From positions 310,001-374,000 of the forward strand of contig JAJZJR010000001.1 in the NCBI GenBank assembly GCA_021810045.1: a stretch of DNA of 64,000 nucleotides. The letters run 5' to 3'. Position 1 is the stretch's first letter. Every line of letters begins with the position of its first letter. The position numbers and the translations under genes were made by a program. Below the pieces are notes generated by a model, which was not told the origin of the DNA, did no database searches, and was given only the letters and a program-made list of their open reading frames with translations. Of the stretch, positions 58,611 to 63,946 are shown one piece after another. Origin of the DNA: Thermoplasmata archaeon (GTDB taxonomy: Archaea > Thermoplasmatota > Thermoplasmata > Thermoplasmatales > Thermoplasmataceae).

Positions 58611-59786
58611 TCACTTCATTCTAGCCTCCCTGAAATAAAACACCCCTATTACGGCAATGATAAAAACAGCTGTCAGCTGACTGTAAATCAAAACATAACC
58701 TACGTAAGGTAAAGTAAAGTAAACCTGACCCACTAGATCCCTCGAAGGAACAGGCAAAGGATCTTTGGCAGGATTGTTGATGCCTTTTGTTACAAAAAAT
58801 TCATGTCCATTTGAATAAGTAATGTTGATGACCTCGTGTGCAAACAGCGTCCCATTTTCCCATGGGGCATTGAAAACTATGACTTCCCCTGTCCTTACCT
58901 GGTTTACATCGATATGCTTAACAAACAAGAGTGAACCTGGTTGTATCTGAGGATACATGCTGTCGGTTGGGTCGGCTATCACATAATGTGATTCTTGTGT
59001 TATTATTGGCATTAATACGAGTAGGATCAGGATTATCAGAATTCCGGCGAATATGACGGGGGTAGTATTATCTTTCTTTTTGAAAGCAACTCTTCTGCTC
59101 TTCAGAACCCTTTTTATATTGATTGATTCCCTCATAAGCCTGTCTGTGATGAATAGGAGGACGGATAGAGAAATTACCTCCCATACCAGATTGAAGAGCT
59201 TTGATACCTGAACATTGACATTCATGGCCAGGAATATTGAATAGATTAGAAGGAAAAGCATGGGTGAGAGAAGATTGAAGTTGCTTTTTAGGTACATAAA
59301 TCCCATAAAAAATGAAAATACCACCAAAAAAGCTATGTTGAAAAGAAGCAATTCGGGCAATCCGCTGATAGAAAGAAATAGTTGTACTGGCGTTACACTC
59401 AACACATAGACTATAGAAGAGATACTCAGTGCAAATACAGGTTTGCGCCAAAGTGCCTTGAGAATCACCCCATAAATCATTGTAACTAGTAGTGCTGAGA
59501 AGAGAAGGGAATAAACTATATTCATCCATAAATCTGTGAAATAGAGGTCCAGGTGGATTTTCCCATATGCAATTGCTGGCTCCACCAGCATGAATATAAA
59601 CAACAAGCTGAGCGAGATCGAATAAACCACTGTCTTGTTAAATTTATAATCATGCCTTCTTGTTAAGAGGACTGGGAAAAGGAGTGCCAGTATAACAGGG
59701 AATTGATTTAAATGGAAATAGTATTCGATCTGCAAAATGAAAATGAATGGAATGGATGCCAACACTTTCCAGTCTGATCTTTTCAT
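58611..59786 (-). CDS. SipW/ER-type signal peptidase fused to a polytopic membrane domain
   Basis: A 391-residue membrane protein. Residues 1 to about 215 hold seven or eight hydrophobic helices. After a basic linker (RRVAFKKKDN) and another helix (about 244-262) comes a type I signal peptidase domain: Ser276 in ADPTDSMYP, His317 in LFAHEV and Asp342 in NNPAKDP, i.e. the Ser-His catalysis of SipW and eukaryotic/archaeal peptidases, not Ser-Lys. A final helix ends the protein. The start at 59786 overlaps the DUF5305 gene by 4 nt. Most likely it cleaves the TasA-like secreted protein encoded at 62850. I do not recognise the N-terminal domain. Confidence 0.8.
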   Translation of the reverse strand: MKRSDWKVLASIPFIFILQIEYYFHLNQFPVILALLFPVLLTRRHDYKFNKTVVYSISLSLLFIFMLVEPAIAYGKIHLDLYFTDLWMNIVYSLLFSALLVTMIYGVILKALWRKPVFALSISSIVYVLSVTPVQLFLSISGLPELLLFNIAFLVVFSFFMGFMYLKSNFNLLSPMLFLLIYSIFLAMNVNVQVSKLFNLVWEVISLSVLLFITDRLMRESINIKRVLKSRRVAFKKKDNTTPVIFAGILIILILLVLMPIITQESHYVIADPTDSMYPQIQPGSLLFVKHIDVNQVRTGEVIVFNAPWENGTLFAHEVINITYSNGHEFFVTKGINNPAKDPLPVPSRDLVGQVYFTLPYVGYVLIYSQLTAVFIIAVIGVFYFREARMK

Positions 59787-60727
59787 AATAACACATATTT
59801 GTACTGTTCACCCTGGTGACTTACATAAAGGACTTTGCCATTGGCATAAAGAAATACTGGTGTTTCCAAAATTTCAGAGAGTTTAATCAGATCTTCCAGT
59901 TTAGAGAGAGTTTTGGCGTCCTCGCTTGGAGGAGTATCTATTTCGACTATGTGGTCACCGTAATCCTTTCTTATTTTTACTACAGTATCTGAAACTCTCG
60001 GAATATACAGCACAGCCATGGAAATTGCACTTGCTCCTGCCCCAGCCAGAAAAATATAGCCAAATACAGTTCCAAGGCCAATAATCTCATGAGGGGTAAC
60101 AAGTTCCTGTTTGAAGGAGGTTACTGATACAGGATTTGAATTACTGTAGGACAAATCTTCATAAGTGCCGTGGAGACTGATTGTCATTGACGTCGAATAG
60201 ATATTGAGACCCGTAGATACAACACTGATGTTAAGAACTATTGTCGGATCAGACGTCCCATCCTGAAGCTCATTGTCTATGCTGGTTGCCAGAGCCATTT
60301 CTTTTGTGATATTCAACGGAATTGAGATTTCAACTACTCCATTTTGCGAAACAGTTTTGCTTGTTTCATTGGTTTCGATGAGTTTTTCCCAGGGAGGGCT
60401 ATTTGAAACCAAATCTACAGTTGATACCAGTGAAACTTTTCTCCCGGAAATGTTACTAAAATGAACAAACGCTTGAGCACTTATGTTCACAGAACTGGTA
60501 ATATTGTTGTAGATTACTGTTGGATTTGTCAAATAGGACTGGTTGTAGAGGGAATTCGGCAATAGATTTTCTTTAACGGTGAAGCTACCTGATTCATTAT
60601 AGCCGGATGTGGGGATCTTTACAGAGTACTGATGGGCCTCTAGGACTATAATTGAACCAACCATGGCAAGTATCAGGAACACAATTACCAACACGGCTTT
60701 TATCCAAAGTTTATCCTTATTGATCAA
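59783..60727 (-). CDS. DUF5305-type membrane protein
   Basis: A 314-residue protein. One helix near the N terminus (about residues 9-30), a roughly 185-residue external domain rich in beta-strand-like Ser/Thr/Asn sequence with many N-x-S/T sites, a second helix near 215-242, and a cytoplasmic C-terminal domain (KLEDLIKLSEILETPVFLY, GKVLYVSHQGEQYKYVLL). This layout and the C-terminal pattern match the DUF5305 family, whose genes accompany SipW-type peptidases in archaea. Function unknown; assembly or anchoring of the filament is plausible. Start is a TTG at 60727 with GGGTGA well placed; an in-frame stop lies two codons upstream, so there is no longer form. Confidence 0.72.
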   Translation of the reverse strand: MINKDKLWIKAVLVIVFLILAMVGSIIVLEAHQYSVKIPTSGYNESGSFTVKENLLPNSLYNQSYLTNPTVIYNNITSSVNISAQAFVHFSNISGRKVSLVSTVDLVSNSPPWEKLIETNETSKTVSQNGVVEISIPLNITKEMALATSIDNELQDGTSDPTIVLNISVVSTGLNIYSTSMTISLHGTYEDLSYSNSNPVSVTSFKQELVTPHEIIGLGTVFGYIFLAGAGASAISMAVLYIPRVSDTVVKIRKDYGDHIVEIDTPPSEDAKTLSKLEDLIKLSEILETPVFLYANGKVLYVSHQGEQYKYVLL

Positions 60728-60956
60728 GAACTTTCACCCAAGTACCTTTTCAGTATTGAAGTTCTGAAGCTTTTCCTGGAGACCAATATTATGTGGGCTT
60801 AACATGGCCCCATAAAAACTCGAATTCCAACGATTAGTTAAGCTCTCTATTGGCCACATATATCAAAAACAACCTCCTGGAAAATAATAAAACTTTCTGA
60901 ATTAAAAGGGAATTCCTTTTTGCAGATTAAATGGCTTTCTTGTTTCATGCTGAAAA

Positions 60957-61562
60957 TCACTGTGCCTCTTGGTTAATCCATGATCTGCTTTTCTGAAGTC
61001 TTGAGTACCTTATCTCCAATCTATGGCTGATGTAAAAAATATAAACTGATATGTAAACAAAGAATGAAGAGAAAAGTACAGTTGCAATAAGCATATCGCT
61101 AATTGCTGATGTGAATAGTGCTGATTTTGTTGAATAGAACATGGTGACGATTATATATTGTGTGAGTGAAACTGAGAAACCGTAGAGCAATAAAATCGAT
61201 CTCAGGTACAAGGCAGAGATCTTTATTCGGGATAGCTCCTCGGAAGGTTTGTAAGCTTTGCTTGTTTCATTGTAAAGCCTTTCAATTTCAGCTCCGGCAC
61301 CTCCAAATGAGTTATTCAATGATTCAAAGATGTATTCATCATTCCCATTTCCCTGCACTATCCCATCCACTAGGTTTTTTGATTCGCTGCTTGAAAAAAG
61401 TCTCACAAAATCAGAAGCTATCAGCAACAAGGATATTCTCTGAATGGTTTTGGCTTTGACTTCAATTTTCTTTATGTAAAGATTAAGGCCTCTTGAGAGG
61501 ATGATAAAAGTAACAATTGTGGAAAGAACTATTGCAGTGGGGATTAAGAGAAGAACTTGCAT
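60957..61562 (-). CDS. Membrane protein of unknown function (about four helices)
   Basis: A 201-residue protein with one N-terminal helix (about 1-24), a soluble stretch of about 90 residues (SSSESKNLVDGIVQGNGNDE and similar), and three helices in the C-terminal half, ending in a basic tail. I do not recognise the family. GGGGAGATG precedes the ATG. It follows the regulator gene by 36 nt and is probably in its operon; the DUF5305 gene begins 229 nt further on, a gap with TATA-like elements near 60812-60819 and 60857-60868 and no gene I can support. Confidence 0.6.
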   Translation of the reverse strand: MQVLLLIPTAIVLSTIVTFIILSRGLNLYIKKIEVKAKTIQRISLLLIASDFVRLFSSSESKNLVDGIVQGNGNDEYIFESLNNSFGGAGAEIERLYNETSKAYKPSEELSRIKISALYLRSILLLYGFSVSLTQYIIVTMFYSTKSALFTSAISDMLIATVLFSSFFVYISVYIFYISHRLEIRYSRLQKSRSWINQEAQ

Positions 61563-61598
61563 CCATGCATCTCCCCAATGAACGCATATTGACTTTCT

Positions 61599-62333
61599 TC
61601 ATGGTTCATTATAACTGCCTCCATTAACAACCCTTAACCTCTCTATCATCTGAGAACCAATTCCTGTTGTTTTGTAGATGGCTTTATCGTCACCATTCTT
61701 TGTTATTCCCAAAAGTTCCCTTCTTAATAGCTCGTCTACAATCTTTCTTGCAGAGTTGTAATTGAGATTGCATCTGAAAACTAAGTTATTCAAAGTAGTT
61801 CCATTCTCAGAAGATGCTGATCTCAAGACCTCCTGGATAAGCATAGTACGGTCTCTGTACTTTTTGGTTACTTTATCATTTTTTTCACTATTCTTAAGAG
61901 ACAGGATCGAGCTTATGTCGAATTTTACGGCCCCAATGGGATCGTTGTCCATCATGGATCTGGATAGAAATGCCGCAACATCGCCAACATTGTTGAGAAT
62001 TACTATTTTCAGTGCACTGGCAAGTAGTTCTACTTCCTCCGGCATTTCCCTTTCGCAGAATATTACCTTTCTATCAGCTCCCACATCATCACTTTGTGCA
62101 TTGAAATATGTAAGCAATGAAAGGCCGTTCCTGATATCCTTGCCGTATTGCTTTCCAAGTACCAGAAAGTCTTCGTTTCCATTGAGATAAAAACCATAAT
62201 CGAATTCATGAACCTTTCCGGATTTTCCATTTAGCTTCGGCTTCATCAAAAAGGTCCAGGTCTCTTTGCATTCAACAATCTTCTCGTGTGGAATCGAATC
62301 TGCCTCATTATATCGGGAACTTGTGTTTAGCAT
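61599..62333 (-). CDS. Winged-helix transcriptional regulator
   Basis: A 244-residue protein. The C-terminal part (about residues 158-238) is an archaeal winged helix: RTMLIQEVLRSA, NLVFRCNLNYNSARKIVDEL as recognition helix region, and YKTTGIGSQMIERLRVV, similar to the HTH_45 type. The N-terminal 150 residues form a domain I cannot assign. It is the first gene of the leftward cluster and divergent from the TasA-like gene, so control of that locus is the simplest guess. A TTAATATATC element at 62382-62391 fits as its TATA box. Confidence 0.68.
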   Translation of the reverse strand: MLNTSSRYNEADSIPHEKIVECKETWTFLMKPKLNGKSGKVHEFDYGFYLNGNEDFLVLGKQYGKDIRNGLSLLTYFNAQSDDVGADRKVIFCEREMPEEVELLASALKIVILNNVGDVAAFLSRSMMDNDPIGAVKFDISSILSLKNSEKNDKVTKKYRDRTMLIQEVLRSASSENGTTLNNLVFRCNLNYNSARKIVDELLRRELLGITKNGDDKAIYKTTGIGSQMIERLRVVNGGSYNEP

Positions 62334-62685
62334 TTAGAATACTTCCAAAATGATTTATTGAAGTACGGATATTATGCGATGAGATATATTAATGATTTTT
62401 GGTAAATATAATTGTATGACAGTGTCTTACCTTCAAATTATCACCTTTCCAATGGGTTTTCTGATAGAATATTTTGAAAATTGAAGGCAGCCAACATTAT
62501 GAAAATTAAAGCTAATAAAAAGGCCCGAAAACACTGACAATTTTTGAATTGCAATCTACACTTTTAAAAAAGTCTAGACTTATAATATGAAAAATAGCTC
62601 TATTATTGGTTCTGTTATAATGAATCAATTTTTCATCGGCCTTGTTCCCAGAATATGATATATTTATTCAGGAACCTACTTTTCT

Positions 62686-62757
62686 ATGTTGGTAACAATG
62701 CCTCAAAAAAGTCTTGGCGGCATCAATATAGAGACAAATCCATTTTACTCCAATTAA
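62686..62757 (+). CDS. Possible leaderless micro-ORF (23 residues)
   Basis: An ATG at 62686 opens a 23-codon frame starting MLVTMPQKSLGG and ending in NPFYSN before TAA. A TATATTTATT element lies about 22 nt upstream, the same spacing as at confident leaderless genes in this window. There is no homology I recognise, and a frame this short can arise by chance; it ends just before the pilin TATA box. Confidence 0.2.
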   Translation: MLVTMPQKSLGGINIETNPFYSN

Positions 62758-62759
62758 TC

Positions 62760-62769
62760 ATATATAAAC
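62760..62769 (+). promoter_or_regulatory. TATA box of the TasA-like gene
   Basis: TATATAAAC lies about 85 nt upstream of the GTG start. Initiation about 25 nt downstream would give a leader of roughly 60 nt that contains the 10-bp palindrome TTCTGCAGAA (62797-62806) and a strong AAGGTGA ribosome binding site at 62836-62842. Confidence 0.5.
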
Positions 62770-62849
62770 TTAACTAATCAATTATTCTAACAGTCTTTCT
62801 GCAGAAGTTAACACTGTCCCCCACATGAAATAAACAAGGTGACATAAAA

Positions 62850-63542
62850 GTGAACAAGAAACTGTTTGCTATGATGATGGTACCTGTTCTGGTGGTTATG
62901 GGAGGCACTTTCGCATTTTCAGCCTGGTCTGGAAGCGGGAATGCATTTTTTGGCCAAACTGCTGCCACAGTATCATACACTGAAACCATGTATTTTAATG
63001 GAACAAATGCGGTCCATAACCCCCTGACTGTTTCAAATGGACAGTCCAGTCAGTCTGTTACACAGGCTACCGCTGAATATAAGATATCCCATGCAGCCGG
63101 AAGCGCTTCATCTGTGTTAAATGTCTATGCAAATGTATCATATCTGGTACCTGGTCAGTATGTTAACTTCACTGTTGTTATTCATAACAAAGGCAATACA
63201 GTCCTCAACACCAGCACAGTGTCAGTAGCAGGTGGAAACCTCTTTAATGGACTTGGACAACAACTCTCATCTCCACAGGGTATCGTTAGCTTCTTTAATC
63301 CTCCAATAACGAATTCATACATACAAAACGTTGCCACAAATGGTATACCCAACATAGCTAATGGAAATGGACCTTTATACCTCATGAATGCAACTTCAAG
63401 TGGATCAACAACTGCTCTCCTGGCTCCAGGCGCCTCCATTACATATGACGTAGTCGCAGTTTTGCCGAGTATTGCCCCAACAAGCTGGCAGGGCTATACT
63501 TTTGACATGGAGATATCGATTCCAATAAGCACTATAGCATGA
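62850..63542 (+). CDS. TasA/camelysin-like secreted filament protein candidate
   Basis: A 230-residue secreted protein. The leader is MNKK, a hydrophobic segment to about residue 17, then GGTFAFSAW; the GGTFA-type end is the hallmark of SipW-cleaved TasA/camelysin proteins, with cleavage likely after Ala22 or Ala25. The mature part is beta-rich, with YLVPGQYVNFTVVIHNKGNT matching the PG...F...N.G strand pattern of TasA, and several N-x-S/T sites. It lacks the type IV pilin leader (no charged residue plus Gly before the hydrophobic stretch). Start is a GTG with AAGGTGA 7 nt upstream. It is opposite a regulator, a DUF5305 protein and a SipW-type peptidase. Extracellular fibre or sheath subunit is the most likely role. 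Confidence 0.7.
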   Translation: MNKKLFAMMMVPVLVVMGGTFAFSAWSGSGNAFFGQTAATVSYTETMYFNGTNAVHNPLTVSNGQSSQSVTQATAEYKISHAAGSASSVLNVYANVSYLVPGQYVNFTVVIHNKGNTVLNTSTVSVAGGNLFNGLGQQLSSPQGIVSFFNPPITNSYIQNVATNGIPNIANGNGPLYLMNATSSGSTTALLAPGASITYDVVAVLPSIAPTSWQGYTFDMEISIPISTIA

Positions 63543-63737: not shown

Positions 63738-63811
63738 GGGTCCGTAGCTTAGCTAGGTAGAGCGATGGACTCTTAATCCATAGGTCGGGGGTTCGAACCC
63801 CCTCGGACCCG
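63738..63811 (+). tRNA. tRNA-Lys (CUU)
   Basis: A 74-nt cloverleaf. Acceptor stem GGGTCCG pairs with CGGACCC (63804-63810); the anticodon loop CTCTTAA gives anticodon CUU; the T-loop is TTCGAAC; discriminator is G73 as in the other Lys tRNA of this window. No encoded CCA. A TATA element TTATAAAT at 63707-63714 lies about 28 nt upstream. Confidence 0.92.
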
Positions 63812-63946
63812 CTATAACTCTGATTAGTTCTGTGAGGACTTTCCTGCGGTACTTCACCACCTGGATAAAATGATAATAGAGAGAGTAAACGGAATGAGCC
63901 CTTTTATCGAGGTCATAGGACATAGTTATAGTATTTACCCCCAGAA

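Follow-up and report, generated by a model that had tools for sequence, protein, structure and literature searches.

Gene content of the locus

We analysed a stretch of 64,000 nucleotides (hereafter the window; G000:C41:310001-374000, contig JAJZJR010000001.1) from the genome of a Thermoplasmata archaeon (2.26 Mb, 81 contigs). It carries a block of five genes that an earlier reading of the DNA, the original prediction, had interpreted as a TasA-like filament locus with a SipW-type signal peptidase and a DUF5305 protein. All five predicted open reading frames (ORFs) were recovered (Table 1). The genes for the regulator, the membrane protein, the DUF5305 protein and the peptidase follow one another in this order on the minus strand, with a 4-base overlap between the DUF5305 stop and the peptidase start, while the gene for the secreted protein diverges from them on the plus strand. 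Between the end of the peptidase gene and the gene for ribosomal L3 there are 212 bases, and the ribosomal genes L3-L4-L23-L2 (from 58398 down to 55693) lie on the same strand directly downstream of the block, which places it beside the ribosomal operon as proposed. The opposite flank is occupied by a tRNA-Lys gene (63738-63812).

Table 1. Features of the five-gene block (positions within the window; aa, amino acids)
Feature	Position	Strand	Basis
TasA/AbpX-like secreted beta-rich protein, candidate fibre subunit, 230 aa	62850-63542	+	homologues, profiles, model
Leader MNKKLFAMMMVPVLVVMGGTFA at the N terminus (residues 1-22), candidate signal peptide of SipW type	62850-62915	+	conservation
Residues 23-40, candidate donor strand	62916-62969	+	conservation, alternation, low pLDDT
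Promoter and leader block conserved ahead of the TasA-like gene	62757-62849	+	three-genome alignment
TCTAGACT motif conserved between the two divergent genes, candidate operator	62573-62580	.	three-genome alignment
AT-rich block conserved ahead of the regulator gene, candidate promoter for the four minus-strand genes	62379-62408	-	three-genome alignment
Winged-helix regulator, 244 aa	61599-62333	-	HTH_45
Membrane protein, 201 aa, no known family	60957-61562	-	hydropathy
DUF5305 protein, 314 aa, start codon TTG	59783-60727	-	PF17231
Accessory signal peptidase I, 391 aa	58611-59786	-	TIGR02228, Ser276 + His317

The secreted protein and its relatives

Profile comparison showed that the secreted protein belongs to a family related, at the sequence level, to the TasA and AbpX fibre subunits. 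Orthologues were found in G005 and G033 (about 50% identity) and in G271 (63%). G001 holds a fragment, and other genomes of the same family contain weaker paralogues; up to three paralogues occur per operon and up to five per genome. When a profile of 24 homologues, all from one GTDB family, was run against 177,635 PDB sequences, TasA (5of1, 8aur) and AbpX (9sj2, 9rhp) were the top four entries (E 0.036-0.09). The same four ranked first with a 28-sequence profile (E 2.8e-7 to 4.6e-5), an improvement brought about by the addition of four distant Thermoplasmatota proteins taken from DUF5305 loci. Two of these intermediates matched a 21-member profile in a small ORF set (E 3e-6 and 2e-4). Alignment to mature TasA with HHalign scored 37.8 over 33 columns, against a maximum of 17.3 in 200 shuffles, and an N-x-YQGS motif in the C-terminal strand is collinear with NKYQGNS of TasA. 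The camelysin model PF12389 was matched by 10 of 21 homologues (best E 3.5e-4), with scores under the Pfam cutoff where checked (best 20.9 bits versus 22.5), and the camelysin match anticipated for the window protein itself was absent. TIGR04088 (cognate_SipW) matched neither this protein nor the 21-member alignment. Pfam/NCBIfam scans of the single protein gave matches at chance level only, such as CH4_NH3mon_ox_B and DUF7507, and these were discarded. A second, tandem pair of TasA-like genes is present in this genome at C24:1506-3019, and a near-identical pair lies at G016:C1:1905518-1907031.

The leader end of GGTFA type that had been noted in the original prediction is present and is kept in homologues. 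G19, A22, S24 and G28 are invariant in the 24 homologues, among which mean pairwise identity is 0.53 for residues 1-22 and 0.52 for residues 23-40 versus 0.27-0.34 for the remainder. Between residues 26 and 38, most residues at even positions are apolar (0.5-1.0; the invariant Gly28 is the exception) and those at odd positions polar. In the AlphaFold monomer model the protein is a beta protein (mean predicted local distance difference test score, pLDDT, 78; predicted template modelling score, pTM, 0.71), whose strands begin at residue 42 and whose pLDDT falls below 50 at residues 20-36. Residues 23-40 would thus fit, without proving, the donor strand expected in a monomer model.

An accessory signal peptidase of the archaeal type

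The peptidase scored 102 bits on the archaeal signal peptidase model TIGR02228 (sigpep_I_arch; cutoff 51.85), and Ser276, His317, Asp342 and Asp350 are invariant in seven relatives. By sequence it is, as originally proposed, a Ser-His enzyme, and it is of the archaeal/endoplasmic reticulum type; the nearest solved structures are the signal peptidase subunits SEC11A and SEC11C (E 4.5e-11). A multi-transmembrane N-terminal part of about 240 amino acids, kept in all relatives, precedes the S26 domain, and the peptidases of distant loci are of similar length (393-398 amino acids). The named contigs matched by the peptidase all belong to metagenome-assembled genomes of Thermoplasmata, for example Thermoplasmatales archaeon UBA447. 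Since the score on the SipW model NF046067 (59.6 bits) is below its cutoff of 190, we speak of a SipW-like function and not of SipW itself.

A separate family of 269-amino-acid S26-like proteins, with a Ser-Met and His-Arg signature as read from sequence, is present in 64 of the 77 genomes of the family, including this one (C40:74152-74952). The block peptidase is therefore not the sole signal peptidase of the genome but an accessory one, as is SipW. That is, an archaeal-type signal peptidase distinct from the general one lies beside its putative substrate, which, together with the linkage, bears out the SipW-type role assigned to it earlier. The only other TIGR02228 match in the genome is a small S26 protein on G000:C11; it is probably a maturation protease for nickel superoxide dismutase, because the gene before it reads as this enzyme by sequence (L091:960-1803 for the two genes). 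Another peptidase architecture was seen in relatives, where proteins of 527-541 amino acids (L106:269-1852, L107:943-2568) begin with a long hydrophobic part and have an S26-type region towards the C terminus.

Distribution of the block

The conserved neighbourhood that had been expected across Thermoplasmata was found: the block recurs in eight genera, far beyond chance. The gene order of the window is present in G000, G005 and G033, adjoining the ribosomal operon in G005 as in this genome, and parts of the arrangement occur in G054 and on two further contigs of G001. Five loci (G001, G016, G032, G011 and G266:C118) carry a seven-gene form in one direction, in the order winged-helix regulator, membrane protein, TasA-like, DUF5305, signal peptidase, TasA-like, TasA-like; in G154, G256, G254, G240 and G171 a TasA-like gene diverges from the DUF5305-peptidase pair. 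At all readable loci but one, the DUF5305 and peptidase genes are direct neighbours; in the exception, G271, the TasA-like gene separates them and DUF5305 is on the opposite strand. On about 15 contigs the module has TasA-like genes next to it, in varied orientations, and the regulator and the small membrane protein accompany the peptidase. In the distant Thermoplasmatota G129, G136 and G141, DUF5305 adjoins a peptidase of 393-394 amino acids, with SipW-type secreted proteins nearby; the partner in G129 (L071) matches TIGR04088 over its cutoff. In distant G203, a 398-amino-acid peptidase is followed by a 366-amino-acid ORF covering the DUF5305 match.

Within the family, the block peptidase is present in 16 of 77 genomes. 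TasA-like genes occur in all 16 of these versus 3 of the other 61 (Fisher p 7e-14, a value that ignores phylogeny). The earlier idea of a dedicated system in a cell without a rigid wall does not hold in general; given the patchy occurrence of the block, we regard it as an accessory trait and not as a replacement for the cell wall. Two modules are damaged. A transposase gene interrupts DUF5305 in G016 (L037:4282-6868), with the near-identical G266 module (L082) intact, and in G023 (L033:4724-6840) the peptidase reading frame is broken, with the DUF5305 and TasA-like genes retained.

DUF5305, membrane protein, regulator and intergenic region

The DUF5305 assignment was confirmed by PF17231 (34.4 bits, gathering cutoff 29), and a whole-genome search agreed. 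The protein comprises an N-terminal transmembrane segment, a beta-rich middle, a second transmembrane segment near residues 220-241 and a small, well-predicted C-terminal domain after it. The structure model is poor overall (pLDDT 60.7, pTM 0.32) and gave no Foldseek match under E 0.001; its weak Ig-like matches were left unused on account of this model quality. The library of papers searched contained none on DUF5305. For the small membrane protein, hydropathy gives about three hydrophobic spans (residues ~3-21, 123-141 and 158-176), so that a membrane protein was rightly called but the four passes ascribed to it were not recovered. The winged-helix call was upheld by HTH_45 (31.3 bits, cutoff 25.5), a domain located in the C-terminal part of the regulator and shared by all nine relatives scanned (best E 1.7e-15); a GKSGxxHxxDF region is conserved in the N-terminal part. 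Among the five block genes there was no family match to ATPase or platform genes of type IV pili or archaella.

The regulator and TasA-like genes diverge from an intergenic region of 516 bases, in which a three-genome alignment placed conserved islands mainly at both promoters and at TCTAGACT. The block preceding the TasA-like gene has 16-23 of 30 columns identical, versus 4-8 across most of the intergenic middle; it includes a TATA-like ATATATAAA (62760-62768) and a ribosome-binding AAGGTGA (62836-62842), followed by the GTG start. The AT-rich block on the regulator side has 18 of 30 columns identical. A scan for Sigma-70 promoters gave no more matches than in shuffles.

Comparison with known systems

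The best profile match, AbpX (E 2.8e-7 with the 28-sequence profile), is the subunit of ABP-like fibres of Pyrodictium, which are donor-strand exchanged (PMC11952670). Like our candidate subunit it is archaeal, secreted and beta-rich, but it comes from another archaeal phylum and is distant in sequence, and the match spans no more than about half the domain. AbpA of Pyrobaculum was not retrieved by the PDB profile search. With the Bacillus subtilis tapA-sipW-tasA operon the block shares an archaeal-type signal peptidase encoded beside its substrate, here a putative beta-sandwich protein, and a conserved N-terminal segment, here a candidate strand. In both, the peptidase gene overlaps that of an accessory protein, which is tapA there (PMC10151520) and DUF5305 here. 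We recognised no TapA homologue in the block, where DUF5305 takes that place; even among Bacillus, TapA lacks conservation (PMC10151520). Further differences are the long membrane part of the peptidase with its low SipW score, and the added regulator and membrane protein. In B. cereus, one SipW serves an operon with more than one camelysin (sipW-calY1-calY2; PMC10151520), and the seven-gene form likewise combines one peptidase with several TasA-like genes, although camelysin scores stay under the cutoff as described above.

Haloarchaeal plasmids (for example in Halobellus sp. DFY28 and Natrarchaeobaculum sulfurireducens AArc1) also encode signal peptidase I beside proteins annotated in the records as 'SipW-dependent-type' and 'TasA family'. 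Their leaders, however, are of another type, often with RRK/RRR, and DUF5305 was matched neither in the scanned proteins of these loci nor in a search of plasmids. Among Thermoplasmatales, which lack an S-layer, the filaments solved are a type IV pilus (CdiP of Cuniculiplasma) and the archaellum of Oxyplasma (PMC12448462). These belong to the type IV pilin superfamily, use an ATPase and platform, and have a machinery unrelated to the block described here.

Proposed assembly route and alternatives

Taken together, the block probably encodes an accessory export-and-assembly system for a surface fibre of the TasA/AbpX type. The winged-helix regulator, divergent from the TasA-like gene, would set expression, and Sec would export the preprotein via its conserved SipW-type leader. 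The membrane-embedded Ser-His peptidase, and not the general one, would then cut the leader near residue 22, as its catalytic residues, the linkage and the second peptidase suggest. Residues 23-40, once freed, would slot as a donor strand into the beta-sandwich of the following subunit to form the fibre, for which the sequence pattern of this segment argues. The two-transmembrane DUF5305 protein, with its beta-rich ectodomain, and the small membrane protein may start, anchor or chaperone the fibre next to the peptidase; their linkage points this way and, by analogy with the place of TapA in B. subtilis, DUF5305 is a candidate for the accessory slot that TapA holds in bacteria. We also entertain, as a speculative extension that we think rather doubtful, that DUF5305 and the multi-transmembrane peptidase form one membrane machine coupling cleavage to donor-strand assembly, in which a DUF5305-bound acceptor would receive the cut N terminus. 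Such a machine, absent from the Bacillus system, would anchor the fibre in the bare membrane of a wall-less, acid-loving cell.

Several results weigh against a TasA-type fibre. The window protein alone had no significant family match in the Pfam/NCBIfam scans, so that the proposed TasA-like identity stands for the homologue family and not for the single protein. The same-family profile by itself falls short of significance. As to the expected fold, the model is a beta protein, but Foldseek returned no match below E 0.001 and placed TasA (8aur) only 43rd (E 0.21, template modelling score 0.23). Moreover, the profile match to TasA is mostly one 33-column hairpin (PGxxV...NxG) that is common to DUF11-type surface proteins, TasA-like proteins occur without the peptidase in G013, G216 and G243, and the tandem pair on C24 has neither a DUF5305 nor a peptidase gene beside it. 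The hairpin, being common in non-fibrous surface proteins, and the homologues lacking a nearby peptidase would also suit a coat or matrix protein that forms no fibres: the accessory peptidase would cleave it, but no donor-strand polymerisation would follow. It could be part of the dense, unordered exterior layer of about 20 nm described for Cuniculiplasma and Oxyplasma (PMC12448462). Since the proteins of this layer are unnamed and the solved filaments are not TasA-like but a type IV pilus and an archaellum, we regard a coat role as the main rival. Yet conservation outside the leader is highest in the segment right after it, where apolar and polar residues alternate, features that a plain coat protein would not need, and the best PDB relatives are all donor-strand fibres (PMC11952670); we consider a coat role unlikely.

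It is less plausible still that DUF5305, the membrane protein and the regulator sense the envelope, with the peptidase processing a ligand or sensor that is secreted. The joint travel of regulator and small membrane protein with the peptidase, the conserved region in the regulator N-terminal part and the C-terminal domain of DUF5305 would agree with signalling, but TasA-like genes have multiplied and diverged as structural subunits do, which a ligand need not. Least probable, to a degree that makes it hard to sustain, is that the block serves another secreted substrate and that the TasA-like gene is a chance neighbour: one G266 module (C116, L083) is without any TasA-like gene and has another secreted family nearby, against which stand the repeated adjacency in varied orientations and the complete co-occurrence with the peptidase.

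If a fibre is indeed formed, TasA/AbpX-type fibres extend to the S-layer-free Thermoplasmatales, whose solved filaments are type IV pili and archaella only (PMC12448462). For DUF5305 this would suggest a role open to testing, that of a partner to the SipW-type peptidase, and wall-less cells without an S-layer would offer a clean setting for questions of fibre anchoring and start. In the library of papers searched, none joins Thermoplasmatales and TasA, although priority is not certain.

Outside the window, three tandem secreted paralogues of about 200 amino acids carry 'ADVMITGNV' after the leader (L002:16839-18652, corresponding to G000:C41:382838-384651). By profile comparison this family did not resemble TasA. 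It may constitute a second substrate family of the peptidase, because a relative (L083:1414-2037) lies near the G266 module that comprises regulator, membrane protein, DUF5305 and peptidase without TasA-like genes.

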